Shown: positions 4,265 to 42,508 of the stretch, in pieces
Numbering within the stretch: position 1 is the stretch's first letter
Layout: the number at the start of each line of letters is the position of its first letter
Assembly (NCBI RefSeq): GCF_004799325.1
Contig: NZ_SSMD01000001.1
Span: 496,001 to 560,000, forward strand
Length of the DNA: 64,000 nucleotides
Direction: 5' to 3'
Source of the DNA: Thalassobius vesicularis
Lineage (GTDB): Bacteria > Pseudomonadota > Alphaproteobacteria > Rhodobacterales > Rhodobacteraceae
Notes under the pieces: model-generated
Seen by the model: the letters and a program-made list of their open reading frames with translations, nothing else
Told to the model about the DNA's origin: nothing
Database searches by the model: none
Made by a program: the position numbers and the translations under genes

Positions 4265-5152
4265 ATGGTGAAATACGTTCTGCGCCGGAACCGGACGGAG
4301 ACCGAGCAACCGAAAGAGGCGAAATCCGCGCCTCTGCTGGAACGCGTCGCCCGCCACGCCGCAGAGGCGGAGGCGCAAGAACGCGTCGTGCGCGCCGCGC
4401 TGCGCACGCCCGAGCCCGCGCCGAAACGCGATGTTTGGCACGCTCTGCCGCAGATTCCGGTGGATGGCCGCCTGATGGACGAGCACCTGATCATCACCGC
4501 CACCCGCCATGACCCCGCCCATGCCACGTTCGACGTGCTGCGCACACGGCTGGTGCAGACGCTTTCCGAAAAGGGGTGGCGGCGGGTTGCGATCACCTCG
4601 CCGACCAGCGGGTGCGGCAAAAGCTTTGTCTCGCTGAACCTGGCGATCACGCTGTCGCGCTATGACACGTGCCGGACGGTGCTGATGGATATGGACCTGC
4701 GCAAACCCAGCCTGGCCGGGCTGTTGGGCATTCCCAATCCGGGCAGCATGGGCGACTGGCTGCGCGGAACCCGCCGGACGGACCAGCAATTCCGTCGCTT
4801 TGCCCCCAACGGGCTAAAGATCGGTGACACGCTGGCCGTGGGCCTGAACGATCGCCCCGAACCCTATGCCGCCGAGCTGCTGCAAAGCCCGGACACCCGC
4901 GCCCGCATCGAACAGATGGAGGCAGAACTGGCCCCCGATATCGTGCTGTTCGATCTGCCTCCGGCCTTGGCGCAGGACGATGTGATTGCGTTCCGGCAGA
5001 TGTTCGACGGTGTGCTGATGGTGGCGCGCGGGAACCAGACCAAGTCTGCCGAAATCCGCGAAGTCATGCGCCGACTGGGCGAGGACGTACCGCTGTTGGG
5101 CGTGGTCCTGAACGGGGCCGAAGGCGCCCCGACCGAGGAATACGGCTATTGA
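4265..5152 (+). CDS. CpsD/CapB-type bacterial tyrosine kinase (free-standing)
   Basis: This is a bacterial tyrosine (BY) kinase of 295 residues that probably controls EPS chain length or assembly through autophosphorylation. It has a P-loop (TSPTSGCGKS, about residues 112-121), a Walker A' motif (LMDMDLRKPS) and a Walker B-like LFDLPPA. The N-terminal ~75 residues are charged and resemble no known domain. The C-terminus ends EEYGY with only two tyrosines, a short version of the usual tyrosine cluster. It has no membrane segments, as expected for the split kinase type whose co-polymerase partner is separate. The Wzz-like gene on the opposite strand, abutting at 5153, is the obvious partner. 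Confidence 0.85.
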   Translation: MVKYVLRRNRTETEQPKEAKSAPLLERVARHAAEAEAQERVVRAALRTPEPAPKRDVWHALPQIPVDGRLMDEHLIITATRHDPAHATFDVLRTRLVQTLSEKGWRRVAITSPTSGCGKSFVSLNLAITLSRYDTCRTVLMDMDLRKPSLAGLLGIPNPGSMGDWLRGTRRTDQQFRRFAPNGLKIGDTLAVGLNDRPEPYAAELLQSPDTRARIEQMEAELAPDIVLFDLPPALAQDDVIAFRQMFDGVLMVARGNQTKSAEIREVMRRLGEDVPLLGVVLNGAEGAPTEEYGY

Positions 5153-6478
5153 TCAGCCGCGCTGCGCCCGCGAGGTGCGGCGGAAGACATTCAGCATATC
5201 CACCAGATCCAGCACGCGCCCCTTCATCAGGGCCGATGCGCCGGCGATCAGTGCCAGCAGGCCGGTAATCCAGGCCAGACGGCGACGACGGCGGCCCTTT
5301 TGGCGATCAAGGTTCGGGATCACGACGACCGGGCGGATATCCAGCTCTTTCTCAAGCTGCGCGGCGGTGCGGACACGGGCGTTCATGAACTCCAGCCCCA
5401 GGGCCAGACCCAGCGCCAGCATCAGCGAGGCCATGCCCCCCATCATCGCCAGCTTGCGACGGCCCGACGACACCGGGTATTCCGGCACGATCGCGGTTTC
5501 CAGCACCTCGAAGCGTTCGAACTGGTTCTGGCTTTCCAGCTGGCGGTTCATGGCGGCCTCGGCGCGGCGGGTGGTGACGACGCTCAGCTCGTCCTGCAGC
5601 TGGGTCAGCTCGCGCTCCATCGCGCTCAGCTGGCGCTGAACTTCGGGCGCGGCGGTCAGGGCAGCGGCCAGGATCGAGATCCGCTCCTCCAGCAGCAGTT
5701 TCTGCTGACGCAGCAGGGTGGTCTGGCGGTTCAGGTCCTCGGTGCGCAGGCGGTCGGCGTTGGTTTGCAGGTCCAGCAGCTTGCGCTCGATATCCAGTTG
5801 GTTGTCCTTCAGCCGGGTCAGCTGACCCTGCTGGGACACCAGGTTTTCGGGCAGTGACGCCTGATTCAGGGTCTTGTAATCGGCCAGCTTCTGCTCGGCC
5901 TCGGCGATGGCGGCGCTGACGCGCGCCTCTTCGCCCTCAAAGAAGGCGAGCGTCCGCTCGGCGCGGCTGGCGCGGCGCGATTTGCCCTCGACCAGCACGC
6001 GGGACAGCAGATCGTTGGCCACATCGGCGGCCAGCTGGGCGTCGCCCATGCGGACGGTGATGATCAACCCCGAGGGCTGCACGTCCGGGCGCCAGGCTTG
6101 CTCGGCGTCGATCAGTTCCTGGATGGTGGCGGCGCCACGCAGCAGGCCGACCTTTTGCGCCATCGACATGGCGGCGTCACCGGCGAACAGGTCGAACTTC
6201 TCGATCACCTCGATCAGGCTGTCGCGCGACATCAGCTTTTGTTCGATCAGCTTCAGCCGGGTTTCAACGGCATTGCTACGCTGAGCGCCGGGAACGGCCA
6301 GATTTTCCTCGACCTGCGCCATCTCGATCTGGATGACGGCGGTTGCCTCGTACACGGCCGGACGGCTGAGCGCATACATCACCGCCGCGGCCGAGCCGAT
6401 GACAGTGACCGCAACAATCAGCCAAAAACGACGCAGCACGGCGGCAATGATCGCGGAAATCGAAAACGTCTGGCCCAT
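5153..6478 (-). CDS. Wzz-type polysaccharide co-polymerase (chain-length determinant)
   Basis: This is an inner-membrane co-polymerase of 441 residues. It has an N-terminal transmembrane segment (about 15-38) and a periplasmic region rich in coiled coil (about 165-300, many Leu/Gln/Glu/Arg heptads). The second transmembrane segment lies at about 345-365, following a proline-containing PEYPVSSGRRK stretch. An additional hydrophobic segment near 402-420 follows a basic cluster (RRRRR), so the C-terminus may cross the membrane again; this is not standard for Wzz. There is no kinase domain, fitting a split system with the free-standing BY-kinase at 4265-5152. The two genes are tail-to-tail with no gap. 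Confidence 0.85.
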   Translation of the reverse strand: MGQTFSISAIIAAVLRRFWLIVAVTVIGSAAAVMYALSRPAVYEATAVIQIEMAQVEENLAVPGAQRSNAVETRLKLIEQKLMSRDSLIEVIEKFDLFAGDAAMSMAQKVGLLRGAATIQELIDAEQAWRPDVQPSGLIITVRMGDAQLAADVANDLLSRVLVEGKSRRASRAERTLAFFEGEEARVSAAIAEAEQKLADYKTLNQASLPENLVSQQGQLTRLKDNQLDIERKLLDLQTNADRLRTEDLNRQTTLLRQQKLLLEERISILAAALTAAPEVQRQLSAMERELTQLQDELSVVTTRRAEAAMNRQLESQNQFERFEVLETAIVPEYPVSSGRRKLAMMGGMASLMLALGLALGLEFMNARVRTAAQLEKELDIRPVVVIPNLDRQKGRRRRRLAWITGLLALIAGASALMKGRVLDLVDMLNVFRRTSRAQRG

Positions 6479-6816: not shown

Positions 6817-7458
6817 TCAGGCCAACGTGACCGCAGTCACAATGTGGCCCGAATCGATGGCAAAGCGGCCATCCAGCGCGTTGCCCGGCCGGAACGGGCC
6901 AGCCGAGATGCGGAAGCGCGCCGAGAACTGTCCGGCGCGGTCCCAGGTGACCTGCATATCGTGGAACCCATAGAGCGTGCGGCTGATCGGAAACTGCGCC
7001 TTGTAGGCGGCTTCCTTGGCGGAAAACACCAGCTTGGCCATTTGTCCGGGGTGTTGCGCGGTCAGCACGGAGGCACGTTCTTCGGGCAGCAGGATCTCGT
7101 CCCACAGATCCTCGGGCAGATCGGAATCGTCCTCGACATCCAGCCCCAGCGTGCGTGCGGCACGGGTGACGACGGCCAGGCACAGATCATCGCAATGGGT
7201 GATCGAGCCCACATAGCCGCGCGGCCATTGCGGCACACGGTCGGCGTCGGGCAGGATCGGCACCAGCGGTCCGCCAAGGGCCGAGAGCGCCTCGCGCGCG
7301 GCGGTGCGGCCGGCGGTGAATTCCATGCGGCGCTTGGGGACGGCCTGCGTGACGTGGGTCATTTCCTCGGGGTACAGAAACCCCGAAGGGCGCCGGGGGT
7401 CTGATACCCCGACGCCCACCGGGCAATCGAACAAGGATATGATCCGGTCCGGTGTCAT
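6817..7458 (-). CDS. 4'-phosphopantetheinyl transferase (EntD/Sfp type)
   Basis: This 213-residue enzyme transfers the phosphopantetheine arm of CoA to carrier-protein serines. Motifs are present in family order: GSITHCDD, the Mg-binding GLDVED, and FSAKEAAYK (equivalent to WxxKEA). Its ATG overlaps the NRPS stop codon by four bases (ATGA, 7455-7458), so it is co-translated with the NRPS. It presumably activates the PCP of that NRPS (Ser 1422) and the ACP of the PKS (Ser 1767). The start at 7458 is chosen from this overlap and from the alignment of the family core; the frame is open further upstream only through the NRPS C-terminus. Confidence 0.92.
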
Positions 7459-10400
7459 CCGGCACGTGTCATGCGGCGGGCGCGCATCTCGCGCCGGCGG
7501 GCCATCGCGTCGGAACGGTCGGTGTTGTCCGCCTCGGGTGCGGCGGGGCCAGAGTCGCTGGGGCCGCCCGTCATCTCGATCACTTTGGCGGACAGGGCCG
7601 ACAGCACCGGGAAGCGGAAGATGTCGGTGATCGACAGCTTCTCGGCCCCCAGTTTCTGGCGGATTTCCCGGTGCGCCTGAACGGCCAGCAGGGAATGCCC
7701 GCCAAGGGCAAAGAAGTTGTCCTTGCCGCCGATATTGCTGACGCCCAGGATGCGCGACCAGATCGCGGCGATGTCCTGTTCCACGGTGTTTTCGGGTGCG
7801 ACATAGGCGGCCTGCTGCTGGCTGCCCCCTTCGGTCGGCGCGGGCAGGGCCTTGCGGTCGACCTTTTTGTTCGGGGTCAGCGGGAAGGCATCCATCCGCA
7901 CAAAGGCTTGCGGCACCATGTAGTCGGGCAGCGCGGCAGAGAGACGCTCGCGCAGCTTGATCTGACACACGTCGCCCGCGGCGGTGTAGTAGCCGACCAG
8001 ACGCAGGGCACCCGGCGTATCCTCGCGCGGGATGACGACGGCCTGACGGATCGCCGGGTCGGCATCCATCAACGCCTCGATCTCGCCGAGTTCAATCCGG
8101 TAGCCGCGGATTTTGACCTGGTGATCGGCGCGGCCGATGAAGTCCAAACGCCCGTCATCGCGCCAACGGACCAGATCGCCGGTGCGGTACATGCGGTTGC
8201 CCGCGATGAACGGGTCCGCGACAAAGCGTTCCTCGGTCAGGTCGGGGCGCTGCCAGTAGCCGCGGGTGACGCCTGCGCCGCCGATGTAAAGCTCGCCCGC
8301 CGCACCGATGGGCACGGGCTGCATCGCGTGGTCCAGAACATACACCTGCGTATTGGCGATGGGGGTGCCGACGTTCACGATGTTTTCGCCCATGCCTGCC
8401 GTCTGGGTCGTGGACCAGATGGTGGTTTCGGTGGGGCCATACATGTTTTCAATCGTCGCGCGGGTGGTTTCGCGCAGGTCGCTGACCAGCGCACCGGGCA
8501 ACGCCTCGCCCCCGATCATCAGGTGCTTGACGCGGCCAAGGGCAAAGCGCGCCTCGTCGTTCATGGCGATCATGCGGGCCATCGACGGGGTGCATTGCAG
8601 GTGGGTGACGTTGTGGCGGACGATCTGCGCCGCGATCGAGAAGTCGTCGGCGGGCAGGTCCTCGGCCATGTTGGACAGCTCGCGCACCTTGGCCAGATGT
8701 TGCAGCCCGTTCAGCACGGTCTGTTTCTCGATGCCATAGTCGATCAGGCAGGCGATTTCGTCCACGCCGATGCGTTTCAGCTGTTCCACGCGGGTCAGGC
8801 AGTCATCCACGGTGCCGAACAGGCCGGAATCCTCGAAATAGCGCAGGAAGGCGAATTCCAGGATGGCGTCCAGTTCCTCGTCGGACAGGGTGCCGAGGTC
8901 CAGCTCGAACGGGTTCGAGACCCCCTCGGGCCGTTTGAACGCCGGGAAGACCCAGGCGAATTGCTTGATCAGCGCGGCGGCCGAGGCAAGGTACGCCTTC
9001 ATCGGGCCACGGGCGATGTCGCGGGCTTTTTCACGGTCTTCGGCGACGAAGGTGTGCAGCATCAGCGTGACGGTGAAATCGGCCGGGTCATGACCCGCTT
9101 CGCGCAGCGCGTCGTGATACAGGCGGATCTTGCCGCCGACCTCGTCAATCGACTGGCCCAGCAGGTGGGTCAGCACGTTGGCACCGATCTTGCCGGCCTC
9201 GCGCCAGGTGTCGGGGTTGCCCGCGGTGGTGACCCAGACCTCCAGCTTTTTCGAGACGGGGCGCGGCTGCGTGACCACGCCATGCATCGAGCCGTCGGCC
9301 ATCGGGAACTGCACCTCTTCGCCCTTCCACAGCTTGCGCAGGGTTTCGATGCTGTCCAGCATGGCCTGTTTGTTGTTGGGCGGGCTGTTTTCGGGGCGCA
9401 GCACGAAGTCATGCGGCTGCCAGCCCGAGGCGATGCCAAGCCCGGTGCGCCCGTTGGTCAGGTTGTCGATGACGGCCCATTCCTCGGCGATCCTTGCGGG
9501 GTGGTGCAGGGGGGCGACGCAGCTACCGGCACGGACGGCCAGGTTTTTCGTCAGCGCAGCAACGGCAGCACCGGTGACGGACGGGTTCGGATAGGGGCCA
9601 CCGAAGGCGTGGAAGTGGCGCTCGGGCGTCCAGACGGCGACGAAGCCGTTGTTGTCGGCGAATTTCGCGCCCTCGAACAGCATCTCGTACTTGTCGCGAC
9701 CGACGCCATCGTCATTGCCCCAGTAATACAGGCTGAACTCCATCTCCTTGCCGGTGACATTCATCGCGCCGGACGACACCAGCGCGCGGCTTTCATCCCC
9801 GCTGACCACCAGCTTGAAGCCACGGGCGAGGGTATAGAACAGCTCCAGCACCGAGATGTCGAAGGACAGGCTGGTTACGGCCAGCCAGGTGCCGCCGTCA
9901 TGCGCGATACGGTCGTCCATGCCGGTGAAGAAGTTGGACACGTTGCGGTGTTCCACCATCACGCCCTTGGGCCGCCCGGTCGAACCCGAGGTGTAGATCA
10001 TATAGGCCAGGTCCGCGCCCTGAACACCGCTATCCAGATTGTCGGTCGGCGCGGACAGGATCGCGGGGTCGGTGTCGATGCTGACGACCTGGGCATTGCC
10101 TGCGGGCAGGTCCGCGATCAGCGCCTGTTGGGCGACGATGACGGGGCAGGCGGAATCCTCGATATAGAGCGCGATGCGATCCGCCGGAAAGGCCGGGTCC
10201 AGCGGGACATAGGCGCCGCCCGCCTTCAGGATACCCAGCGCGCCGATCAGCAGGTGGGTCGAGCGTTTGGTGTGCAGCCCCACCAGCGTGCCGGGCTGGA
10301 CGCCCTTGGATTTCAGCACATGGGCCAGCTGGTTGGCGCGCAGGTTCAGCTCGGCATAGGTCAGGGTTTCGCCCTCGAACACCAGCGCGGTGGCGTCGGG

Positions 10401-11957
10401 GGTCTTGGCAACCTGGCGTTCGAACATCTGATGGATGCAGGCGTTGGCGTCATAGTCCGCAGCGGTGGCGTTCCAGTCGGTCAGGACCAGTTGGCGTTCC
10501 GCATCCGGCATGATGTCCAGATCGGCGACCGGGCCGGAGGGCGCGGTCAGCTTGGCCAGACGGGCGGCCATACGCTCCAGCGCGTCCTGCGAGACACGGG
10601 CGGCGTCGGCGATCAGCTTGGCCTGACCATCGGCCATGAACAGGGTCATCGCCGCGCCGGGGGCCTGGGAAGGGACCAGCGAGAGCGCCACATCCGGCGC
10701 GGCGATATCTGCCAGATCGGGGCGGCGGATCAGGGCATCGCGCGGAAAGCCGCCCTTGTCCTGCGCCTTGGCGATCTGCTTGCATACGGTAGCGTATTGT
10801 TCGGCGGCGTCGGCATGCAGATCCACGCGGATCGGCGCCCAGCCGGTGACATGCGGCGTGCCCGCGCCCAGCACCAGCGCCACATCGGTGGCGTCGGTTC
10901 CGGCCAGCCGCGCGGCGATCAGCGCCATCGCGGGGAACAGGCCGTCATGGGCGGTCAGCGCCAACTCGCGCACGCCGGTGTCACGAGTCGGCGTGAAGGC
11001 CAGACGCGCAGGGGTGTAGCTGTCCAGCGTGGCGCGATAGGCAAGTTCAGCCGCGATGGCGGGTTTCATCGCCTCGGTCAGCGCGGCATCGGGCGTATCA
11101 AGCACCTCGCCCGCCTTGGGCAGGCGGTTTTGGTTCAGGAAGGTCAGCCCGGTCAGGCAGATCGCGCCGTCCGCAGTGGCGACGGTCAGCATGTCCTTGG
11201 TGGTTTCCAGAACGGTGCCGGGGGTACCTGCGCCCTCAGCCGGTTCGGCGTGACGCACGGCAATCACGGTGTCGCCTTGCTGCACCTTGGGCAGGAACAG
11301 CGGGTTGCGGAATGTGTCGTGGTCCAGCGCCTTGACGGTGCGGGTCAGGTCCGCCGTGGGGCGGGCAAAATCCAGCACGGCGGCAGCGGCGGGCCGGTCC
11401 TTCAGCGCGAAATAGCTGCGCTGCGACAGGTCCTGTTTCTGGCGGCGCAGCCCGTGTTCCAGCTGGTCGACAAGGCCGGGGAAAGTATCGATCGCGGCCT
11501 CGTAGCAGCGAGTGTTCAGGGTCAGCGCGGTGTCGTCGGGGTGGATGACGAACGTGGCCTGCGAGAGGATGTCGCCCTCGTCGATCCCGCCTTCGATCAG
11601 GTGCCAGGTGATGCCGTGCTGTGCCTCGCCGTTCAGCTGCGCCCAGACCGGGGCATTCAGGCCGGCATAGCGCGGCAGCGGGCCGTCGTGGAAGTTCACC
11701 GCCCCCTTGGCCGCTCGATCCAGCAGCGGCTGCGGGATGATGTCCAGGTTCGCGACGGACAGCAGCCAGTCATAGGTCAGCGCCTCGGGGACATCCGCCA
11801 GCGCGGCCACGGGCAGCCCCTTGCCTGCCGCCCATCCGGCGACGGCGGGGTTGCGGGTCACGACGGTGGCAATCTGGTGCCCCTTGCTCAGCAGCACCTC
11901 GCCACATTGGATGGCAAGCGATTCATTCCCGATCAACAGCGTGGAAAACTTGGACAT
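7455..11957 (-). CDS. NRPS: formyltransferase, degenerate C remnant, A domain interrupted by luciferase-like monooxygenase, PCP
   Basis: This is a 1500-residue assembly-line protein. Residues 1 to about 300 are a formyl_trans domain with catalytic Asn 88, His 90 (FHDGPLP) and Asp 129. About 310-470 resembles the C-terminal half of a condensation domain but lacks HHxxxDG. The adenylation domain starts at about 485 ([11 protein letters not shown] core; A4 at FDISVLELF). It is interrupted at about 735-1095 by an FMN luciferase-like monooxygenase of the MupA/Atu3671 kind, then resumes at about 1100 with A5 NMYGPTETT and A8 [19 protein letters not shown] follows (LGGHSL, Ser 1422). There is no thioesterase. 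My reading of the specificity residues (D-I-L-Q-M-G-M-I-W-K) matches the known glycine code. The ATG at 11957 has GGAG eight bases upstream, better placed than for the in-frame GTG at 11963. The lack of a C domain makes this a loading module. Confidence 0.92.
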
Positions 11958-11978
11958 AGTCACAACTCCGGTAAGCCG

Positions 11979-12998
11979 TCAGACGTTCGAGCGGTCAGCC
12001 GGAACCGCACGTCTGGGGCTGGTTTCGCGCGCCCCACCCAGGGCACGCAGGGCGAATTTCAGATCATGGCGCAGCAGCGTCCGCAGGAAATGCGGCGGCG
12101 TGCCGGTTGGTTTACGCTCTAGCGTGCGGCGCAGCCAGTTCAAGCCGCCCCCCAGCAGATGGGCGCAGGTCGCGGCGGCCGCATAGGCGACGCCATGGTT
12201 TTTCACGAAATAATGCAGGCGCGAGTCGTACCAGTAATCCGGCACGCGCGCCCATTCCTTCATCCCCGTCGAGACCGAGCCGATATGCATCACGTGGCTA
12301 TCCCGGACATAAAGCGACTGATGCCCGGCGCGGTGGGCGCGCAGGAACAGGTCGGTTTCCTCGAAATAGAGGAAGAACGTCTCGTCGAACGTGCCCATCT
12401 GGTCCAGCACCGATTGGCGCATCAGGATGCTGGCCCCGGAAATCCAGTCGGCCCGGGTGTCCTGATCGGGCAGCGGGCAGGCGATGGTACGGTCGCGCAG
12501 CAGACGCGTCACCGGGCCAAAGCGGATCGCGCTTTCGAACTCGGACGCGATCGAGGGGAAGCGGAACAGCGTCTCGTGCGGCTCGCCCTCGGGGCCGTGG
12601 ATGTAGCTGCCGGCGCACCACAGCGTCGGGTCGGCCAGCAGGGGCCGCAGCAACAGCTGGATCGCGTCGGGCGCGGGGAAGGCGTCGGAGTTCAGCACGT
12701 AGACGAATTCGGGCTTGCTGCCGTCGCTCAGGCCCGCGCGGATGCCGACGTTATTGCCCGCGCCAAAGCCGCCGTTGCGGCCCGATTGCACGACGCGGAC
12801 GCGGTTGCCCTTGGTCCAACCCTGCGCTGCCGCATGGTCTGCCATCTTCTGGAACGACCCGTCGCCCGAGTCGTTGTCCACGACGATGATTTCTCCGGCA
12901 AGGCCCTGCATGGCGCGCAGGGCATAATCCACCGCGCGCAGGGTCATGTCAGGCGTGCGCCAGTTCAGCACGACGGTCAGGATACGGGGCTGGCTCAT
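11979..12998 (-). CDS. GT2-family glycosyltransferase (rhamnosyltransferase-like) inside PKS/NRPS operon
   Basis: This 339-residue GT-A enzyme resembles the WbbL/rhamnosyltransferase group. It has an N-terminal TVVLNWRTPD strand, the GT2 acidic motif VDNDSGDG, a VLNSDAFPAP metal-site region and a downstream acceptor motif (FLYFEETDLFLRA). Its ATG overlaps the PKS stop by four bases, and its stop lies 15-21 bases before the NRPS start, so it is embedded in the biosynthetic operon. It either glycosylates the PKS/NRPS product or ties that product to the EPS pathway. The sequence cannot distinguish these. A short hydrophobic stretch near residues 275-290 may be a membrane contact. Confidence 0.87.
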   Translation of the reverse strand: MSQPRILTVVLNWRTPDMTLRAVDYALRAMQGLAGEIIVVDNDSGDGSFQKMADHAAAQGWTKGNRVRVVQSGRNGGFGAGNNVGIRAGLSDGSKPEFVYVLNSDAFPAPDAIQLLLRPLLADPTLWCAGSYIHGPEGEPHETLFRFPSIASEFESAIRFGPVTRLLRDRTIACPLPDQDTRADWISGASILMRQSVLDQMGTFDETFFLYFEETDLFLRAHRAGHQSLYVRDSHVMHIGSVSTGMKEWARVPDYWYDSRLHYFVKNHGVAYAAAATCAHLLGGGLNWLRRTLERKPTGTPPHFLRTLLRHDLKFALRALGGARETSPRRAVPADRSNV

Positions 12999-15900
12999 TC
13001 TGCGGCCTCCTTCAGCGGGAGGGGGTCTGGCTGCGCCTCGGCGCGGGTGATGCAGTCGCGGATGCGGGCTGCCAGAACGCGGACGTTCGGCTCCAGCACC
13101 ATCGAGTCGTGGTCGCCCGGCACCTCGTAGACCTCGATCTGCGGGGCGTGCCCGGTCCAGTCGTTATCGTCCAGCACATAGGCGCGTTCCGAGTTCACCC
13201 AGCGCCCCGGCCCGACCTGCCACTTGCCGACCAACGGCGGGCGGAACAGGGCCAGCGGGCCGTCCCACGGGCGGACCTGGTACTTGGCGACAGCGGCGAG
13301 GAACGCCGCCTCGATCTGTGCATTGTGGAACGAATGGCTGGGCTGCGGCGCGTCCTGCGTACCGCGGCGCTTGGCCAGCTCCCACTTGATGCGGTTGGTG
13401 GCCCAGCGGGCGATGTAGCCCAGACCGCCGGCCTTGAGTTCCTGTTTCTGGATCTCCATCCGGTCCGCCTTGGACAGCGGGCGGCGCACCGGCAGCGGCG
13501 TGTCGAGCATGACCAGCAAAGACACCTCCTCGCCCGCCGCGCGCAGTTGCTGCGCGATCTCGTAGGCGGTGATGCCGCCACCCGAGAAGCCGCCGACCAT
13601 GTAGGGCCCGTGCGGCTGCACTTGGCGCATCTCGGCGATGTAATCGGCGGCGGCCTGGGTCAGGTCGTCATGCGGCGCGTCCTCGCCATACAGACCGCGC
13701 GCTTGCAGGCCGTAGAAGGGGCGGTCGTGGCCCAGAAGGTGCGCCAGATGGCGCAGATTCAGCACGTTGCCGAACATGCCCGCGACCAGGAAGAACGGCG
13801 TGTTCGGACCGCCCTCGCCCGCGTGCATCGGCACGATATGGGTAAAGCGGCGCTGCGGTTTCGCGGCTTTGGGCGCGTCCTCGGGCTGGACGCCTGCGGC
13901 GATGCCACCTGCATCCGCGATCAGGGCGGCACATTTGCGGATCGTCGGGGCCTCGAACAGGACGGAAATCGGGAAATCGACGCCGAACGCCTTTTTCACC
14001 TTGGCGAACAGGCGCACCGCGACCAGCGAGTGACCACCGAGGTCAAAGAAGCTGTCCTCGGCCCCGATCTGTCCGACCCCCAGCAGGTCCTCCCAGATCT
14101 CGGCTAGCTGCGCTTCCAGCCCCGGCTCGGGCGCGACGTAATCGCTGTCCAGCTCGGGGCGGTCGAATTTCTGCTCGGTCGAGGGCGCGGCCTCGGTCAC
14201 GGCGGTTTGCGCGATCAGCCCGTGCAGGTCCATCGAGCTGATGACCACCTGCGGCAGACCCGAGGCGAGCGCGGCCATGAACGCCTGCGCGCCTTCCTCT
14301 GGCCGGATGCCCTGCGAGAGGTTGTGTTGCAGGCGCAGTTCGGCCGGCGACAGCGGGCGATGCGCGGATTGCGCGGGTTTGGGCTCGGGCGCGCGGGCAA
14401 ACTCGGCACCGCGTTCCAGTCTGCGGATGGTAAAGCCCTGCACCTCGACACATACGGTGCCGTCTGGTTTGCAGATCGTCACGTCAAAGCTGGCGGTCTG
14501 GCTGTCGGCAGCGTTGGCCCCGGCGTTGCGCACATGGCTGACGATCTCGCGCCCAATCGGCGCATGGACACGGACGCGGGCATAGGACATCGGCACCCAC
14601 AGGTGGGTCGGCTGGTAGCCCTCGATCAGTTCCATCGCCCAGCCGGTGGCCAGGTCCATCAGGCCGGGATGCAGGCCGCAATCGTCTTTGTATGCCGCGG
14701 ATAGCGACAGCCGCGCGATCCCCTCGCCCTGCCCCAGCGCGGTCTCGCGCAGGACGTGCCAGCGCGGGCCGAAATTCAGGTGCGCCTCTTGCGGCGAACG
14801 CAGGTGCGTGTCCGAGCGCTGCACACGCGGGCAACGGGCGGTGATCGCGGTCAGGTCCAGCGGCGCGGGCTGCGTCAGGGGCAGCAGCGACAGCTCGGCC
14901 TGCGCGTTCAGATCAGGCGCGGCACCAGCGGCGGCGCTTTCCACGCGGAAATCATACCCGATGTCCGAGCGCGGCAGCGTCACCGTCACCTGACGCCCGG
15001 CCCCGTCCACTTGCAGCGGCTGGAGGAAGGTCAGGTTGCGGATCTCGAACGCGCCGGGTTCACCTTGGGCGCGCAGCGCCTCGTACGCCAGTTCCAGATA
15101 ACCGGTGCCGGGCAGCAGCGCGTCGCCTGCGCGGGTCTTGTGGTCGTGCAGAACCCAGCGGTCAGCGACGGTGTAATCGGCGCCAAAGGTGCGTGCACCC
15201 TCGGCGTCGAAGCTGGCCCAATCCAGCAGGGTTGCGGTGATCGGCTGTTGCGGCGCGGGGTCGTGGCCGGTGCGGGCGGCCATCGCCTCGGCCGCCATGC
15301 CGACGCCCGTCCAGATGCCCCAGTCGATGGCCAGCACGCGGGTCTTGCCGCCCTGACGGGCCTTGGCAAAGGCGTTCAGGTATTCGTTGGCAGCAACGTA
15401 ATCGACCTGACCGGCGGGGGCCGTGACGGTGGACGACGAGGAGAACAGCACCATCCAGTCCAGCGCCCCATCGGGGAACAGCGCGTCCAGCACCTGGGTG
15501 CCGTGGATTTTCGGGGTGAACACGTCCTCGATATCCGACAGGGATTTGCCCAGGATCGGCGCGTCGCTGATGACGCCGGCGGCGTGGACGACGCCCTTGA
15601 TCGGGCCAAGCGCGGCTTCGGCCTGCGCCTTGGCGGCCTTCATCTCTTCGACGTTGGAGACATCGGCGGCGATGACCATGACCTGCGCGCCCGAGGCTTC
15701 CAAATCGCGGACGGCCTGAATGCGGCGGACAATCGCGGCATGGGGCGCGGTCTTGGCGATCACGTCATCCCATTCCGCACGATCCGGCAGGGCCGAGCGG
15801 GACAGCAGCACGATCGGCGTCTTGTGTTGCGCGATCAGCGCCTTGGCGACGGTCAAGCCAATGCCGCCGAAGCCGCCGGTGATCAGCACCGGCGCGTTGG

Positions 15901-18900
15901 TGATGTCCGGCTGCGCCTCCAGCGGGGCGGCGCGCCAGATCTGGGCGAACCGCTTGTCGCCACGCAGCGCCGCGACCGAGTTCGAGGGGTTCGCCAGCAT
16001 CTCCTCCAGGATCGGCAGGATATCCATACGCTTGCGTTTGGTGTCCACGTCCAGCACGGCGCAGGTCAGGCCCGGGAATTCCCGCGGGATGACGCGGGCG
16101 GGGCCCATGACGGTGGATTTCTCGGGGTAGGGCAGCACTTCCTGGCGGACCTGCGCGGCGCCCGAGGTAAAGACGGACAGGTGCGCCTGTTCCAGCCCCT
16201 CATCGGCCAGCGCCTGCGCCAGGAACATCAGGCTGTAGAACCCCTGTTCCACATTGCGGTGGAAAAAGCTGGAGCCGGGGCGGAACGTTTCCCGATCCGT
16301 CACCAGCCAGAAATGCGCGATGCGATCGGGCAACGCGCCCTCGACCGCCAGCGCCTGAATCAGGTGGTCGTAATCCTCGCGCCCGCGTTCGGGGGACAGG
16401 ACGTAATCGTCGCCCGACAGCTTGCCGAACCCGTCACCGGGAATGACGGTGACGACGCGGTGCCCGCCGTCGCGCAGGCGGGTGACGGCCTGCTCGGCCA
16501 GCCCGGTGTCGTCCTTGAAGACCAGCCAGGTTTGCGGCGCGCCCAGCTCGGTTTCCACGTCCAGATCAATGTCCGCGAATTGCGGCTTCCAGAACGGCCG
16601 ATAACCCCAGCTTTCGGGGTTGTCCGAGCGCATGAGGAACTCCTCGCCCTCGTCCGCCCGCGCCTTGCCGGGTTCGATGAAATAGTCGCTGCGCTGGAAG
16701 GCATAGGTCGGCAGCGGCACGCGGTTTCGCCGCCCCTCGCCCCAGATTTGCGCCCAGTCGAAATCCACACCCACGGCCCAGACGCGGCCCAGCATGGCCA
16801 TGAAATACTTGTCGTCAAAGATCGCGTCGTCGGGGTGGCGCAGGGTGCCGATGACCTGATTGGCCTGCACATTCGGGTGCTGCCCGGTCAGCGAGGACAG
16901 CGCCTTGCCGGGGCCGACCTCGATATAGATACGCTCGGGCGTCTCGGACAGCGCGGTGATGCAATCCGCGAAATGCACGGTGCCGCGCAGGTGTTGCACC
17001 CAGTAATCGGGGCTGGTGGCCTGCTGGGGCGTGATATACGCACCCGTACGGTTCGACACGAAGGGGATCTTCGGCGCGCTGAGTTTGATGCTGCGCAGGT
17101 AGTCGCCAAAGCGTCCCAGGATCGGCTCCAGCATCGCGGAATGCGCGGCGATGTCGATCGGGATGCGCTGCGCCTGAATGTCCATCTTTGCCAGCGTCTC
17201 GGCCAGCCGATCCAGCGCGGCCTGTGGACCCGAGGCGACGCTGAGGCCGGGCGCATTGACCGCCGCCAGATCCAGATCATCGCCCAGCAGCGGGCTCAGT
17301 TCGGCGGCGTCCATCGGGACGCTCAGCATCCCACCAGACGGCACCGTATCGAACAGAGAGCCGCGCAGATGCACCAGCCCGATGCAATCCTCGAACGACA
17401 TCACGCCGGCCAGACAGGCGGCGGTGTTTTCGCCCATCGAATGACCGACCAGAGCGGCCGGTTTGACACCCCAGGACATCCACAGCTGCGCCAGCGCGTA
17501 TTCGGTGATCATGATCAGCGGCAGTTGCAGGCTGGGACGGCGCAGGGCCTCGTCGGCCCTTGCCCGGTCGGCCTCCTCGGGCAGCCACAGCGCGCGGATG
17601 TCGGCGTCGGTCAGAGTGTCCAGATGGGTCAGGCCGCGATCCATCCATTCAGCGAAAACCGGCTCTGTCTCATACAAATCCCGCGCCATGCCCGCGTATT
17701 GCGCACCGCCGCCGGGGAACATGAACACCACGTCGGGCGCGTCGCCCACGACCTGATGCTGGAACACGCGGCGGGGGTCGTTGTCGCGCAGCAGTTGGGC
17801 GGCTTCTGCATGACTGTCGGCCACCACGACCATACGGCGATCAAACGCACGGCGACCGTGTTTCAGGGTCCAGGCGATGTCGGCCAGCGGCTGATCGGTG
17901 GCCTCCAGATGCTCGGCCAGTTTGGCGGCGCTCCCCTCCAGCGCCTTTTTCGAGCGCGCGGATAGCGTCAGTAGTTGAAACGGAAAATCCGCCTCGTCCG
18001 AGGCGGCGCGTTGAGGGGCTTCCTCCAGCACGACATGGGCGTTGGTGCCGCCAACCCCAAGCGAGTTCACACCGGCCCGACGCGGGCCTTTGTGGCTGAT
18101 CCAATCCGTCAGCCGGTCGTTCACCCGGAACGGCGAGCCGTCGAAATCAATCGCCGGGTTCGCGGCCTCATAGTTCAGCGAGGGCGGCATTTGTTTATGC
18201 ATCAGCGCTAGGCTGGCCTTGATCAGGCTGGCCACACCTGCCGCCGTATCCAAGTGGCCGATGTTAGTTTTCACCGAGCCAATCCGGCAGAACCCCACCT
18301 CATCCGTGGTTTCGCGGAAGGCGCTGGTCAGGGCGGCAACCTCGATCGGGTCGCCCAGATAGGTGCCGGTGCCGTGGCATTCGACGTAGTCAATCGTGTC
18401 GGCCGGGATGTTCCCCAGCGCGTGCGCGTCGGCAATTGCGGCGGCTTGGCCCTCGACGCTGGGGGCCAGATACCCGGCCTTGTCGGCGCCATCGTTGTTG
18501 ACGGCCGAGCTTTTGATGACCGACCAGATGTGATCGCCATCGCGGATCGCGTCCTCCAGCCGGCGCAGCACGACAACACCGGCGCCCGAACCGAACACCG
18601 TCCCCTGCGCGCGATGGTCAAACGCGTGGCAATGACCGTCGGGCGACAAGATCTCGCCCTCTTTGTACAGATACCCGCGGGCGTGGGGCAGCTCGATGGT
18701 GACCCCCCCGGCCAGCGCCATGTCGCATTCGCCGTTCAGCAGCGACTGGCAGGCGTAATGCGTCGCCACCAGCGAGGTCGAGCACGCCGTCTGCACGTTC
18801 ACCGACGGCCCTTTGAGGTTCAGGATGTGGCTCAGCCGGGTGGACAGGAAATCCTTGTCGTTGCCGGTATGGCGCAGCAGGAACATGCCCACGTTCTGCA

Positions 18901-19327
18901 CCATGTCGGGGTTCGAGCAGATGTTGAAATAGAAATAGCTGCCCATGCCGCAGCCCGCGAAAACCCCGATAGGGCCGTCGAAATGTTCGGGCATATGCCC
19001 GGCGTTTTCCAGCGCCTCCCAGGCGACCTCCAGGAACTGGCGGTGCTGCGGGTCCATGATCGCGGCGTCCTGCGGGCCAAGGCCCCAGAAATCGGCGTCA
19101 AAGCCCTTGAACCCGTCCAGCACGGCGGCGGCGGGCACGTAATCGGGGCGGTCGATCAGATGCGCGGCCTCGCCTGCCTCGATCAGGTCATCCCGAGTCA
19201 GGTGACGGATGGATTCGACGCCATCGCGCAGGTTCTGCCAGTACTGCTGAACCGTCTGCGCGCCCGGAAGGTGCGCAGCCATGCCGACGATCGCAATATC
19301 GGCGCTGGAATGCTGTTCGTCCGTCAT
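12995..19327 (-). CDS. Type I modular PKS: KS-AT-KR-DH-ACP-TE
   Basis: This is a 2110-residue single-module polyketide synthase. Domains in order: KS (about 8-440) with Cys 182 (TACSTS) and histidines in ECHGTGT and KTNIGH; AT (about 540-840) with GHSMG Ser 630 and an IAAHS specificity segment, malonyl-like by inference; a KR structural half and KR (about 900-1390) with GGFGGIG and Tyr 1310 (DYVAANEYL); DH hotdog domain (about 1390-1660) with His 1396 and Asp 1558; ACP Ser 1767 (LGGHSL); and a type I TE with Ser 1915 (GFSGGG), Asp 1942 and His 2073. KR before DH is the reverse of the common order. There is no loading domain, so the NRPS PCP is the likely donor. The ATG at 19327 is preferred over the in-frame GTG at 19336. 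It is the first gene of the four-gene operon. Confidence 0.93.
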   Translation of the reverse strand: MTDEQHSSADIAIVGMAAHLPGAQTVQQYWQNLRDGVESIRHLTRDDLIEAGEAAHLIDRPDYVPAAAVLDGFKGFDADFWGLGPQDAAIMDPQHRQFLEVAWEALENAGHMPEHFDGPIGVFAGCGMGSYFYFNICSNPDMVQNVGMFLLRHTGNDKDFLSTRLSHILNLKGPSVNVQTACSTSLVATHYACQSLLNGECDMALAGGVTIELPHARGYLYKEGEILSPDGHCHAFDHRAQGTVFGSGAGVVVLRRLEDAIRDGDHIWSVIKSSAVNNDGADKAGYLAPSVEGQAAAIADAHALGNIPADTIDYVECHGTGTYLGDPIEVAALTSAFRETTDEVGFCRIGSVKTNIGHLDTAAGVASLIKASLALMHKQMPPSLNYEAANPAIDFDGSPFRVNDRLTDWISHKGPRRAGVNSLGVGGTNAHVVLEEAPQRAASDEADFPFQLLTLSARSKKALEGSAAKLAEHLEATDQPLADIAWTLKHGRRAFDRRMVVVADSHAEAAQLLRDNDPRRVFQHQVVGDAPDVVFMFPGGGAQYAGMARDLYETEPVFAEWMDRGLTHLDTLTDADIRALWLPEEADRARADEALRRPSLQLPLIMITEYALAQLWMSWGVKPAALVGHSMGENTAACLAGVMSFEDCIGLVHLRGSLFDTVPSGGMLSVPMDAAELSPLLGDDLDLAAVNAPGLSVASGPQAALDRLAETLAKMDIQAQRIPIDIAAHSAMLEPILGRFGDYLRSIKLSAPKIPFVSNRTGAYITPQQATSPDYWVQHLRGTVHFADCITALSETPERIYIEVGPGKALSSLTGQHPNVQANQVIGTLRHPDDAIFDDKYFMAMLGRVWAVGVDFDWAQIWGEGRRNRVPLPTYAFQRSDYFIEPGKARADEGEEFLMRSDNPESWGYRPFWKPQFADIDLDVETELGAPQTWLVFKDDTGLAEQAVTRLRDGGHRVVTVIPGDGFGKLSGDDYVLSPERGREDYDHLIQALAVEGALPDRIAHFWLVTDRETFRPGSSFFHRNVEQGFYSLMFLAQALADEGLEQAHLSVFTSGAAQVRQEVLPYPEKSTVMGPARVIPREFPGLTCAVLDVDTKRKRMDILPILEEMLANPSNSVAALRGDKRFAQIWRAAPLEAQPDITNAPVLITGGFGGIGLTVAKALIAQHKTPIVLLSRSALPDRAEWDDVIAKTAPHAAIVRRIQAVRDLEASGAQVMVIAADVSNVEEMKAAKAQAEAALGPIKGVVHAAGVISDAPILGKSLSDIEDVFTPKIHGTQVLDALFPDGALDWMVLFSSSSTVTAPAGQVDYVAANEYLNAFAKARQGGKTRVLAIDWGIWTGVGMAAEAMAARTGHDPAPQQPITATLLDWASFDAEGARTFGADYTVADRWVLHDHKTRAGDALLPGTGYLELAYEALRAQGEPGAFEIRNLTFLQPLQVDGAGRQVTVTLPRSDIGYDFRVESAAAGAAPDLNAQAELSLLPLTQPAPLDLTAITARCPRVQRSDTHLRSPQEAHLNFGPRWHVLRETALGQGEGIARLSLSAAYKDDCGLHPGLMDLATGWAMELIEGYQPTHLWVPMSYARVRVHAPIGREIVSHVRNAGANAADSQTASFDVTICKPDGTVCVEVQGFTIRRLERGAEFARAPEPKPAQSAHRPLSPAELRLQHNLSQGIRPEEGAQAFMAALASGLPQVVISSMDLHGLIAQTAVTEAAPSTEQKFDRPELDSDYVAPEPGLEAQLAEIWEDLLGVGQIGAEDSFFDLGGHSLVAVRLFAKVKKAFGVDFPISVLFEAPTIRKCAALIADAGGIAAGVQPEDAPKAAKPQRRFTHIVPMHAGEGGPNTPFFLVAGMFGNVLNLRHLAHLLGHDRPFYGLQARGLYGEDAPHDDLTQAAADYIAEMRQVQPHGPYMVGGFSGGGITAYEIAQQLRAAGEEVSLLVMLDTPLPVRRPLSKADRMEIQKQELKAGGLGYIARWATNRIKWELAKRRGTQDAPQPSHSFHNAQIEAAFLAAVAKYQVRPWDGPLALFRPPLVGKWQVGPGRWVNSERAYVLDDNDWTGHAPQIEVYEVPGDHDSMVLEPNVRVLAARIRDCITRAEAQPDPLPLKEAAE

Positions 19328-19404
19328 TCGACCCACTCACGCAAAAATCTTCGACCTTATGTGCCAAGAAAATAAGGTCTGAATAGGGCGAAGGCATGAA
19401 TTTC

Positions 19405-19451: not shown

Positions 19452-20810
19452 CTACTGAATCAGCTTCGATATATCGGCCCAGTGCATCCAGAACACGGCC
19501 GCACCCACGCTGCCACCCGCCACAAAGAATACCAGATCGTGCAGCGGATCCCATGCGCCTTGGGCGCGCGCCAGCCACACCACCACGGGATAAATCACCA
19601 ACATGCTTATGCCTTGGGCGATCAGGGCACCGAACAGGCCCGCGACCTGGAAACCGATCAGCAGGCCCAGCGTCATCGCCAGCGCCTTTGACAGCGACAG
19701 CACGAAAAACCGCTGCGAGTCGCCCTCGGCCAGCGCGGCCTGATCGTAGGACACGACGATGATCTGCACGACCTGCATGCAGGCCAGCGTCACCACAACC
19801 GGCCCGGCCATCAGATAGCGTTCGTCATACAGGAAATCGACCAGCCAGACGCCCAGAGCGGCGATGCCCAGCACCATGCACAGCAGCACCGTGGTGGCGT
19901 AGAACCGCATCTTGCGCAGCCGCAAAAAGTTTTCGCGCGACTGGCGCGGCGGGCTTTCGCGGTGCACCGGGATCACCACGCGGCGGATCACCATCTGGCC
20001 CAGCATCAGCGGGAACGAGGCCAGGAAAAAGCCGATGTTGTAGATGCCGAACTGCTCTAGCCCCAGGTATTTGCCCAAGATCACCTTGTCGCCCTGCATG
20101 ATCAGGAACCCGCACAGGGTGGACAGGAAGATCCACTTGCCGAAATGCATCAGCTCTTTCGCGGCGGCGGGCTCCAGCCGGAACCGGTTGCGCGGGCCGG
20201 GGATCAGGACGTGCATCAGCACCAGTTGCGACAAGGCGCTGACGATCCCCGAGATCACCAAAGCCCAGACCGAGCGCGTCAGGTAGGCCAGCGTGACCGC
20301 CGCGATCAGGCCCAGAACCTGCGTGCCGATCTCGACCAGCGTCACGCGCCCGGTGCGCAGGTGGCGGTTGGCGGTTTCGAACTTGGTCGGGTTGAACCCC
20401 GAGATCAGCAGCGTCACCGCCGAGACGGGCAGATACCAGGCCAGCTCGGGCTCGGCGTAGATCAGCGACAGCGGATAGGCCAGCGCACTGGCGGCCAGGA
20501 ACAGCACGCCACCCCGGAGGATATGCAGCGACCACGCGGTGTCCAGAAACTCGGGCTCATCCCCGCGCTTGCTTTGCATGATGGCCGGGCCCACGCCCAT
20601 GTCCGAGAACATGCTCAGCCCGACCAGGAACACCGTGACCAGCGCCATCATCCCGAACGCCTCGGGGAACAGGATGCGGGTCAGCACCAGGTTCGACAGC
20701 AGGCGCAGGCCCTGATACGCGCCGAATCCCAGCACGGTCAGCGCCGAGCTGCGGATCGCGCGCTCGATCAGGCTGCTGCCACGGGTCAGGCGGTTCAGCA
20801 GGGCCAGCAT
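19452..20810 (-). CDS. Wzx-type oligosaccharide flippase (MOP superfamily), EPS system 1
   Basis: This 452-residue polytopic membrane protein belongs to the WzxC/AmsL-like polysaccharide transporters. It has about twelve hydrophobic segments across its length and the family N-terminus (GFGAYQGLRLLSNLVLTRIL followed by PEAFG). It would flip the undecaprenyl-linked repeat unit to the periplasm. It lies 42 bases downstream of a GT2 on the same strand. It is distinct from the second flippase at 49072-50424, one of several signs that the window carries two EPS assembly machines. Confidence 0.88.
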   Translation of the reverse strand: MLALLNRLTRGSSLIERAIRSSALTVLGFGAYQGLRLLSNLVLTRILFPEAFGMMALVTVFLVGLSMFSDMGVGPAIMQSKRGDEPEFLDTAWSLHILRGGVLFLAASALAYPLSLIYAEPELAWYLPVSAVTLLISGFNPTKFETANRHLRTGRVTLVEIGTQVLGLIAAVTLAYLTRSVWALVISGIVSALSQLVLMHVLIPGPRNRFRLEPAAAKELMHFGKWIFLSTLCGFLIMQGDKVILGKYLGLEQFGIYNIGFFLASFPLMLGQMVIRRVVIPVHRESPPRQSRENFLRLRKMRFYATTVLLCMVLGIAALGVWLVDFLYDERYLMAGPVVVTLACMQVVQIIVVSYDQAALAEGDSQRFFVLSLSKALAMTLGLLIGFQVAGLFGALIAQGISMLVIYPVVVWLARAQGAWDPLHDLVFFVAGGSVGAAVFWMHWADISKLIQ

Positions 20811-20852: not shown

Positions 20853-21683
20853 CTACCTGCCGCGGCTCCAGTCCGAGGCGTTCCTGCCCTGCGTCAGCTT
20901 TACGACAAGGGCCACACCGGCGTACACGGCAAATCCTGCCGGATCGCGCAAAAATAGGCCACACAGCATCGGGATAGACATGCGCGGCTTGGTATCGTTG
21001 CGGGTCAAATCCGGATAGAGGCGGTCCACCTGATCCACCCCGATATTCTGGCGCCGGCGCACTTTGACCAGGTTCTCGAACCCCTCGACGATGGGCCAAT
21101 CGTACCCGGCCTGCGTCTTGACCCGCTCGCCCGGCGCAAAGCTGAGCCGCACGAACGTGTCGTCCGAGATGATGTCGGGAAACGTCCCCCACCGCTTGCG
21201 CCCCGCGGCGTTCACCGCGAACAGCCCGCAGCCGGGAACATCCTGCGTAAAGAACGGCACGCGCCCGTAGATGCGCCGATAGGCCCGGCTGGCGAATGTC
21301 CGCGCCGGGGCGATCCGCACGTCGCCGCTGGCATAGCGGGCCTCGGGTGTCGCCAGCGCCCGCGACAGCTGCGCCAGCAGGTCCGGGTCCACCGTCACAT
21401 CGGCATCCAGATAAATCCGTTTGTCCCCGCTTGCAGCCGCGTCACCCTGGTTCATGGCGTTCATCTTGCCGCCCTCGGGCAGGTCCAGCACGATCAGGCT
21501 CCAGCCGTTCGCCTCGATCCCGTCCCGCCAGGACAGCGCGCCCTGAACCGTGCGATCCGTGCAGGCATTGGCGGCGACGATCACCTCGACCGGCTCAGGC
21601 ACGGCCGAGGACGCAGCCAGCGACCCCAGGCAACGGCTGATCATCGATTCCTCGTTGTTGGCGGGGATGATGATACTGATCAA
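20853..21683 (-). CDS. GT2-family glycosyltransferase
   Basis: This 276-residue GT-A enzyme starts with the typical SIIIPANNEE strand, followed by a nucleotide-binding segment (VIVAANACTDRT), GGKMNAMNQG and a DxD-type motif (YLDADVTVDP). A hydrophobic C-terminal segment (about 245-262) may anchor it. It is probably co-transcribed with the Wzx at 19452-20810 and diverges from the GT4 at 21795. The 111-base space between them would hold both promoters and contains an AATTGGGCC word at 21740-21748. Confidence 0.87.
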   Translation of the reverse strand: MISIIIPANNEESMISRCLGSLAASSAVPEPVEVIVAANACTDRTVQGALSWRDGIEANGWSLIVLDLPEGGKMNAMNQGDAAASGDKRIYLDADVTVDPDLLAQLSRALATPEARYASGDVRIAPARTFASRAYRRIYGRVPFFTQDVPGCGLFAVNAAGRKRWGTFPDIISDDTFVRLSFAPGERVKTQAGYDWPIVEGFENLVKVRRRQNIGVDQVDRLYPDLTRNDTKPRMSIPMLCGLFLRDPAGFAVYAGVALVVKLTQGRNASDWSRGR

Positions 21684-21794
21684 GCGTGTCTCCTGGGTGG
21701 ACTGGTACGAGTTTCGAAATATCGACGGTTTATGTTTTTAATTGGGCCGGAACAGGGTTTATGTTGCAAGCGCAAACAGATGCAGGACGCTCTC

Positions 21795-25717: not shown

Positions 25718-25733
25718 CGGCACCCCCTTTGGC

Positions 25734-27116: not shown

Positions 27117-27255
27117 CGGTTGGATTCTAGCGCCGAATGGCGCGGCTGCTCTGCTTTTTAGAGTTGTTGCCAAGGGGTTTACCAAAGAGTTTCGGCAAAA
27201 TCATGGCTTTCCTGCCTTGGCAGCGATAAACAATGGCCGCAATTTACCAGTACCT

Positions 27256-29203: not shown

Positions 29204-29221
29204 AGGACTTTCCCCATACAT

Positions 29222-30055: not shown

Positions 30056-30538
30056 ATGAGCGACCACGACAAAGTCGAGAAAACCGTCGGGCTGATTTTC
30101 CAACACGTGGCGCGACTGCGCTCTCGCCTGTTCGATCAGAAACTGTCGCCCCACGGTCTGACCTCGGCGCAGGTATTTGCCCTGAACTACCTGATCCGCG
30201 AGGACGGCCTGACCCAGGTCGAGCTGGCCCGCTATCTGGGCATCGGCACCGTCGCCGTCAGCGGCCTGATCGACCGGCTTGAAGCCGCGCAATGGGTCGT
30301 CCGCAAACCCGACCCGCGCGATCGCCGGTCCAACCGGATCTGGCTGCTACCCGCTGCCGAGGAAAAGAAGCAGGTCCTGCGCGAGGCCGCCCGCGCCGTC
30401 AACGCCGCCACGCTGTCCGGCTTCTCGCCCGAAGAGGTCGATCAACTGCTGTCGCTGATGCACCGCGCCCGCCGCAACCTGATCGACACCATGAAAGACG
30501 ACCCTGAACTGGTCCTGCCCCCCTCGGCCCGCAAATAA
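30056..30538 (+). CDS. MarR-family transcriptional regulator
   Basis: This 160-residue regulator has a winged helix-turn-helix at about 45-105: TQVELARYLGIGTVAVSGLI recognition region followed by a wing with DPRDRRSNRIWL. That is the DxR...R pattern of MarR proteins. N- and C-terminal helices would dimerise. A hotdog thioesterase starts ten bases downstream, so the two form a small operon. It may regulate the thioesterase gene, or act at the long upstream gene-free region; the ligand is unknown. Confidence 0.9.
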   Translation: MSDHDKVEKTVGLIFQHVARLRSRLFDQKLSPHGLTSAQVFALNYLIREDGLTQVELARYLGIGTVAVSGLIDRLEAAQWVVRKPDPRDRRSNRIWLLPAAEEKKQVLREAARAVNAATLSGFSPEEVDQLLSLMHRARRNLIDTMKDDPELVLPPSARK

Positions 30539-30548
30539 GGAACGCCCC

Positions 30549-30956: not shown

Positions 30957-31061
30957 AAATCCCGGCTTCGCACCGAAATCGTCATTTTCTTGCCCAGCTT
31001 CCCCCCTATCGGGGCGCTCAAACCCGCGTATAGTCGGGCAAACAGGCGAAAAGGCTGACCA

Positions 31062-36936: not shown

Positions 36937-36972
36937 GTGCTCGTCCTCGTTGGGGCGCCAGTTGCACCCGTA

Positions 36973-42505: not shown

Positions 42506-42508
42506 GGG

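Follow-up and report, generated by a model that had tools for sequence, protein, structure and literature searches.

A compact NRPS-PKS gene block in exopolysaccharide loci of Rhodobacterales and its predicted product

In a 64,000-nucleotide stretch of the Thalassobius vesicularis genome (contig NZ_SSMD01000001.1, positions 496,001 to 560,000; hereafter the window, numbered from its first letter), four minus-strand genes encode a type I polyketide synthase (PKS), a GT2-family glycosyltransferase (GT), a nonribosomal peptide synthetase (NRPS) starter module and a phosphopantetheinyl transferase (PPTase). As the original prediction stated, the block lies within a polysaccharide cluster, with polysaccharide genes on both flanks. 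We are inclined to think that its NRPS and PKS form a short line dedicated to exopolysaccharide (EPS) synthesis of the Wzx/Wzy type, to which it would supply a C4 acyl group or glycoside. The fuller version of this reading, in which the line is a standing component of the EPS pathway and makes a new N-formyl carbinolamide (4-formamido-4-hydroxybut-2-enoyl) substituent that is flipped by a co-inherited Wzx and edited by a dedicated, exported SGNH-type enzyme in some lineages, is plausible but falls a little short of an even prospect. As far as domains can tell, the anatomy of the block is that of a module making a small N-formylated C4 acid, and the putative dedication of this module to the EPS pathway is strongly supported by the comparison of loci and genomes.

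Anatomy of the block and its relation to known modules

The predicted four-gene block is real and intact, with all four reading frames open, no internal stop and recognizable Pfam domains. The PKS gene (12995-19336 from a GTG start, or to 19327 from the ATG taken in the original prediction; 2113 aa) is followed by the GT2 gene (11979-12998; 339 aa; Pfam), the NRPS gene (7455-11963; 1502 aa) and the gene for an Sfp/EntD-type PPTase (6817-7458; 213 aa from its ATG). The genes had been described as four that overlap, which is true of PKS/GT and NRPS/PPTase, each sharing 4 bases, but not of GT and NRPS, which lie 15 bases apart. The block does not consist of chance open reading frames (ORFs), because the catalytic residues that were checked are invariant across genera in 40 aligned PKS (the window plus 39 of the 40 loci compared below) and 37 aligned NRPS (the window plus 36 of the 40, clustering having omitted the others). 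A pseudogenized or broken block was likewise rejected, since the window genes carry no internal stops, and so was a 383-aa PPTase, of which only the 213 aa from the ATG at 7458 are PPTase and the remainder is an open-frame extension.

The NRPS reads formyltransferase, linker, adenylation (A) domain with an inserted monooxygenase, and carrier (T) domain. Its formyltransferase domain (11103-11963, residues 1-287) retains an intact Asn90-His92-Asp128 triad, invariant in all 37 aligned NRPS, and together with the T domain (7587-7775; Pfam) and the lack of a condensation (C) domain this gives the composition of a formylating initiation module (F-A-T), in which the formyltransferase domain is predicted to N-formylate the T-bound amino acid. 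The linker of about 220 aa (10434-11102, residues 290-510) has no confident Pfam family and is well folded in an AlphaFold model of residues 1-510 (mean pLDDT 93), which matches Met-tRNA, ArnA and sugar formyltransferases with a TM of up to 0.79 by target (a Met-tRNA formyltransferase). A worn condensation domain in the linker found no Pfam match, and the linker is possibly a worn condensation C-lobe. We detected neither a C domain nor a thioesterase (TE) in the NRPS, nor a loading module in the PKS; because of this the natural colinear order runs from NRPS to PKS, and the domain content bears out the earlier assignment of the NRPS as starter module and the PKS as final step.

The A domain is split into an N-terminal piece (9792-10424, residues 514-724, with motif A4 at 701-704; Pfam) and a C-terminal piece (7845-8648, with motif A5 near residue 1173). 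Between A4 and A5, flanked by these pieces, sits an FMN-dependent luciferase-like monooxygenase (8682-9737, residues 743-1094), which scores 476.7 bits against the curated NCBIfam cut-off of 244.45 for TIGR04020 and so belongs to that MupA/Atu3671 family. A single oxidation had been predicted earlier, with the enzyme only hinted at; the oxidation stands and this monooxygenase is the enzyme now placed behind it. The A-domain code, DILQMGMIW in the window, takes the form DILQ[MLFY]GM[IV]W in 37 of 37 aligned NRPS and is DILQLGMIW in 8 of them. In the sections seen of a published survey, the four Gly-activating A domains with a monooxygenase (MOX) all read DILQLGMIWK and all surveyed MOX modules lie in Gly domains (PMC12283262). 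The A domain is accordingly predicted, from its code, to be specific for glycine, and the N-formyl C4 acid with one oxidation of the original prediction is thereby narrowed, again by prediction, to glycine with alpha-hydroxylation. The T domain is followed by a basic C-terminal tail that is conserved, reading RRx[ML]R in 36 of 37 NRPS and RRKEMR in the remaining one; it may act as a docking element.

In the PKS, Pfam matches give the order KS (18026-19300), AT (16826-17728), KR region (15308-16528), DH (14402-15202), ACP (13919-14110) and TE (about 12998-13786). The placing of KR before DH is unusual. The checked residues of all six domains are invariant in 40 of 40 aligned PKS, the one exception being a neighbouring KR serine, replaced by Thr in 12, and domain set and catalytic residues alike are those of a type I modular PKS with a TE. 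The DH motif is one residue longer than the textbook HxxxGxxxxP, and the AT motif, IAAH, matches neither of the textbook forms; the extender unit would be malonyl. No ER domain is among the Pfam matches. Identity with the solanimycin synthetase SolG was rejected, the NF041803 score being 553.8 bits against a cut-off of 2200.

Two groups of known modules resemble the starter. By their published descriptions, in the excerpts at hand, the Gly modules of myxothiazol, melithiazol and solanimycin (SolF) share with it the code DILQxGM[IV]W and a luciferase-like monooxygenase inside the A domain. For myxothiazol and melithiazol the same source places the insert between a4 and a5, as in the block, and assigns it hydroxylation followed by cleavage, and for solanimycin it places the flavin monooxygenase between a8 and a9 and assigns it alpha-hydroxyglycine (solanimycin B) (PMC10204066). 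Those modules are internal or terminal in longer lines, whereas that of the block is a starter with a formyltransferase. The second likeness is to LgrA of linear gramicidin (F-A-T), where a formyltransferase with Asn-His-Asp also lies N-terminal to A and T and no C domain was found. However, the sequences are remote (E ~1e-6), the formyltransferase of the block is nearer to the Met-tRNA and ArnA enzymes, and the block has in addition the 220-aa linker, the monooxygenase and the hand-over to a PKS.

Linkage to exopolysaccharide genes across loci and genomes

To place the block in its genomic setting we compared 40 loci, taken as the first 40 of 64 positive genera in table order with one genome each and up to 20 kb per side; 24 positive genera lie outside this sample, and the genome for each genus was picked partly for contig room. 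Four loci are short on one side at a contig end (G064, G289, G096 and G089), and the window's genus is represented by another genome, so that the window locus is not among the 40. In 39 loci PKS and NRPS flank a GT homologue, with an additional 0.9 kb between PKS and GT in G134, and in G171 the homologue is elsewhere in the locus; behind the NRPS, 37 loci have a PPTase match and G053, G064 and G334 do not. Eight core EPS families were counted: Wzx, Wzz, CpsD, sugar-phosphate transferase, WecB, SLBB, polysaccharide export and ligase. At least one of them occurs in 38 of the 40 loci, at least two in 35 and at least three in 32. The tie to EPS genes that had been drawn from the window thus extends to homologous blocks, which are not consistently found away from such genes. 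As background only, 40 arbitrary 20-kb stretches from 33 of the 40 genomes, set against loci of up to 40 kb, held at least one core family in one case and at least two in none. Like for like, 66 of 80 20-kb halves of the loci held a core family compared with 1 of 40 controls, the paired halves not being independent of each other.

The linkage survives a change of gene order. Seventeen plasmid records cover 80% of the NRPS, nine of which were examined (H1, H3, H4, H7, H9, H11, H14, H16 and H17). Named plasmids of Ruegeria, Parasedimentitalea and Paracoccus carry the block together with EPS genes, the Parasedimentitalea stretch having no PPTase match. On the four plasmids from Hyphomicrobiales (Aminobacter, Shinella, Neorhizobium and Rhizobium BG6) PKS and NRPS-PPTase are divergently oriented, and a flippase, WecB, a sugar-phosphate transferase or export genes lie nearby in varying combination. 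The labels for Neorhizobium and Rhizobium BG6 come from tblastn alone, these records being unannotated, and Rhizobium BG6 shows only a flippase and a weak WecB match. The linkage in these four plasmids, with rearranged order, led us to reject the idea that it is an accident of Rhodobacterales; that EPS genes still surround a rearranged block speaks for a functional tie.

Relatives of the block are widespread in Rhodobacterales. At E<=1e-150 the NRPS has a relative in 160 of 390 genomes of the order and 64 of 139 genera, the window genome included; the nearest same-genus genome has an NRPS of 89% identity. Wider draws that include the window's relatives gave 7 of 385 genomes in the class and 16 of 398 in the phylum. 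The formyltransferase-linker part has at least 570 relatives in a named collection, among the best 80 of which all but two are titled Rhodobacteraceae or Rhodobacterales; the culturable genera Ruegeria, Leisingera, Salipiger and Paracoccus hold relatives. By presence lists transcribed by hand with rounded E-values, on which the Wzx tallies below also rest, the genomes with a PKS match at E<=1e-288 are exactly the 160 NRPS-positive ones (E=0 in 159, 9.6e-289 in one), and weaker PKS matches (1e-203 to 1e-273) occur in 19 NRPS-negative ones.

The Wzx flippase follows the same pattern. Among the 160 NRPS-positive genomes, 125 contain a relative of the window Wzx at E<=1e-125, as against none of the 230 that are NRPS-negative; relaxing the threshold to E<=1e-115 gives 136 and 3, and to E<=1e-50 it gives 144 and 23. 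The Fisher value of this co-occurrence, 3e-70, overstates independence, given the relatedness of the genomes and the fact that cut-offs were inspected with the data already known. In at least 21 NRPS-positive genomes the best Wzx (E<=1e-115) is unlinked to the NRPS, on another contig in 18 and at least about 68 kb off in 3, as in G002, where it lies about 1.9 Mb away. In draft assemblies separate contigs, as in the 18, need not mean distant genes, and the unlinked cases were picked by hand; G203 was placed by its PKS position instead of the NRPS, and G185, counted as unlinked, has a second, weaker Wzx near the NRPS.

There is a main rival to an EPS-dedicated line, namely that the block makes a diffusible small molecule (a signal, metallophore or defence compound, for instance 4-formamido-4-hydroxybutenoate or its lactone) and that the EPS genes are co-regulated neighbours, both being needed in surface-attached life. 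A free acid is the default outcome with a TE, and in the parts of the published cases that were seen, monooxygenase-bearing Gly modules make free metabolites. A further point in its favour comes from the Aliiroseovarius sp. M344 plasmid (L042 14992-28731), where a 42%-identical formyl-Gly-monooxygenase starter lies before a PKS-NRPS megasynthase that has no core EPS families as neighbours; this is perhaps the stand-alone natural-product version, and the related starter directly before a PKS also supports the NRPS-to-PKS order. Against a diffusible product stand the EPS linkage kept through differing gene orders in two taxonomic orders and the co-occurrence with one flippase type, even where unlinked. 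The neighbourhood argues in the same direction: twelve unlabelled neighbour families recur in 6 or more of the 40 loci, and among the eight that are annotated there is no dedicated exporter, receptor or regulator (one other resembles an antisense shadow of the GT). On balance we consider a co-localized diffusible metabolite somewhat unlikely.

As a separate observation on the PKS, a Planktothrix agardhii plasmid (L254 2914-19557) carries a full-length relative (34%) that is divergent from a multimodular NRPS, with no match to the EPS queries within 30 kb.

The polysaccharide cluster of the window and a proposed route to a substituted polymer

In the window the block sits mid-way in what appears to be a complete Wzx/Wzy cluster. 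Beyond the PPTase end lie genes for a GT4 (96-1058, plus), a GT2 (1055-2023, plus), a Gfo-epimerase fusion (2031-4121, plus), a CpsD/BY-kinase-like ATPase (4265-5152, plus) and a Wzz chain-length protein (5153-6478, minus), and a WecB gene is located some 3 kb outside the left edge of the window. Immediately upstream of the PKS comes a Wzx-type flippase (19452-20810, minus), followed by a GT2 glycosyltransferase that is a conserved neighbour (20853-21683, minus; 24 of 40 loci), a GT4 glycosyltransferase (21732-22988, plus), a 912-aa protein with a C-terminal RTX-like repeat (22985-25723, minus; 26 of 40 loci), a candidate polymerase of family c (25734-27185, minus; 22 of 40 loci), which is Wzy-like by eye and has no Pfam or NCBIfam match, and a polyprenyl glycosylphosphotransferase of the repeat-unit-initiating WbaP/EPS_sugtrans type (28511-29221, minus), which scores below the curated cut-offs. 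Initiating transferase, Wzx, Wzz, BY-kinase and GTs together make this a Wzx/Wzy-dependent EPS cluster by family matches, those in NCBIfam lying below curated cut-offs. The N-terminal domain of the 912-aa protein matched no known family, and the protein is a candidate for a secreted EPS-binding or EPS-processing factor. Promoter-like sites in the window occur at chance level only.

A second polysaccharide cluster (35575-53846, minus) adjoins this one and contains an SLBB-type export protein, YjbF, YjbH, EpsG, a UDP-sugar dehydrogenase, an acyltransferase-3, a further flippase (49072-50424) and several GT4. Between the two, a minus-strand ORF without Pfam match (30399-32183) overlaps a plus-strand GT4-like stretch (31713-32324) and may be a shadow ORF; a plus-strand sugar-phosphate-transferase-like stretch (32727-33002) comes after the GT4-like one.

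A PKS gene in a polysaccharide cluster is not in itself without precedent, and gene context alone likens the block to rkpA and wcbR in rhizobial and Burkholderia capsule clusters, where type I PKS genes are known according to an extract of the published account, which mentions no NRPS (PMC3908369). An analogous role here, with an iterative PKS making a lipid-type or primer-type anchor or carrier moiety for the polysaccharide, is difficult to reconcile with the absence of an ER among the Pfam matches and the presence of a TE, and an N-formylating, hydroxylating starter NRPS suits a small polar unit, not a lipid. We therefore regard this role as very unlikely.

In the pathway that we propose instead, the PPTase would prime both carriers and, by analogy with published modules, the A domain would put glycine on T. 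The formyltransferase domain, going by its identity, would N-formylate this glycine, and the inserted flavin monooxygenase, again by published analogy, would hydroxylate its alpha carbon to give a carbinolamide that the formyl group would stabilize. The basic tail of the NRPS may then dock to the PKS, whose KS would accept the unit and add one malonyl, and KR and DH would give 4-formamido-4-hydroxybut-2-enoyl-ACP, so that 4-formamido-4-hydroxybut-2-enoyl is the most likely product. The TE might transfer this product to a sugar, or free it for glycosylation by the neighbouring GT2, and Wzx would flip the modified repeat unit before polymerization. Attachment to the EPS repeat unit would be the most economical reading.

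The hydroxylation step also has a second possible outcome. If the carbinolamide were cleaved, glyoxylyl-T would be left and extended by the PKS to a 4-oxobut-2-enoyl (or reduced) unit, an EPS substituent without nitrogen. The insertion point between A4 and A5 is that of the cleaving modules in the passages seen of the published comparison (PMC10204066), but a formyltransferase triad invariant in 37 of 37 NRPS would then be hard to explain, and we judge cleavage to be unlikely.

In some lineages the proposed pathway may continue outside the cytoplasm. A family without confident Pfam match lies directly behind NRPS-PPTase in 15 of the 40 loci and was found in 36 of 80 named loci (for example L186:15309-16247, behind the PPTase). 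Its members have a signal-like hydrophobic start, and GHSL and D-I-H residues are invariant in 33 aligned proteins. The model (mean pLDDT 91) best matches SGNH/GDSL esterases, carbohydrate esterases and O-acetyltransferase domains, with Foldseek E-values from 9e-4 to about 2e-2, probabilities of 0.77-1.0 and TM by query of about 0.2-0.4; Rossmann-type dehydrogenases and reductases fall in the same E range at somewhat lower probability (0.4-0.96). Because of this probability ranking and the GHSL and D-x-x-H motifs, the exported protein is probably of the SGNH type, at superfamily level only. An SGNH enzyme that makes or cuts esters outside the cytoplasm would fit an acylated polysaccharide, where it would edit or transfer the acyl group.

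A number of our own observations count against an EPS-dedicated line or against parts of the proposed pathway. The bond between product and polysaccharide is one that we infer, and we found no acyltransferase common to the loci, so that the TE would have to take that role. The A4-A5 insertion is shared with myxothiazol and melithiazol, whose carbinolamide undergoes cleavage. The fold match of the SGNH-like protein is weak, and the protein is absent from the window and from the 20 kb to its left. With regard to linkage, the window and block-bearing plasmid loci were themselves the source of the EPS queries, a bias towards the test loci, and the controls were arbitrary stretches, not other NRPS loci. 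In the stretches fetched for two loci, G096 and G253, no core EPS family is present, yet a Wzx relative occurs in each of these genomes. PKS and NRPS do not have the GT between them in G171, Aminobacter, Shinella, Neorhizobium, Rhizobium BG6 and Methylobacterium. In 34 kb examined for each, neither the Aliiroseovarius M344 plasmid nor Methylobacterium bullatum shows any of the eight core EPS families; the former has an exosortase gene, xrtD, some 14 kb further along, and in the latter the NRPS gene adjoins the PKS gene and the only matches, farther off, are to GT4, epimerase and UDP-sugar dehydrogenase. Finally, the genomes behind the Wzx association share ancestry and its cut-off was set post hoc, and 24 of the 160 NRPS-positive genomes have no Wzx relative at E<=1e-115.

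Relation to published work and meaning

In the open-licence literature searched, we found no recognizable description of a PKS-GT-NRPS-PPTase block in EPS loci. Roseobacter genome papers list T1PKS/NRPS clusters as secondary-metabolite genes, in the portions seen without a product or a link to EPS (PMC4062626, PMC11225332, PMC8383342), and in some strains these are possibly the same genes. If the block does serve an EPS pathway, many Rhodobacteraceae, including several marine members, would be using natural-product machinery for their bulk polysaccharide, and genes of cell-surface chemistry may be misfiled in genome mining as 'unknown T1PKS/NRPS'. An N-acyl carbinolamide or enoyl group on the EPS would then give the matrix polymer a reactive or metal-binding handle.

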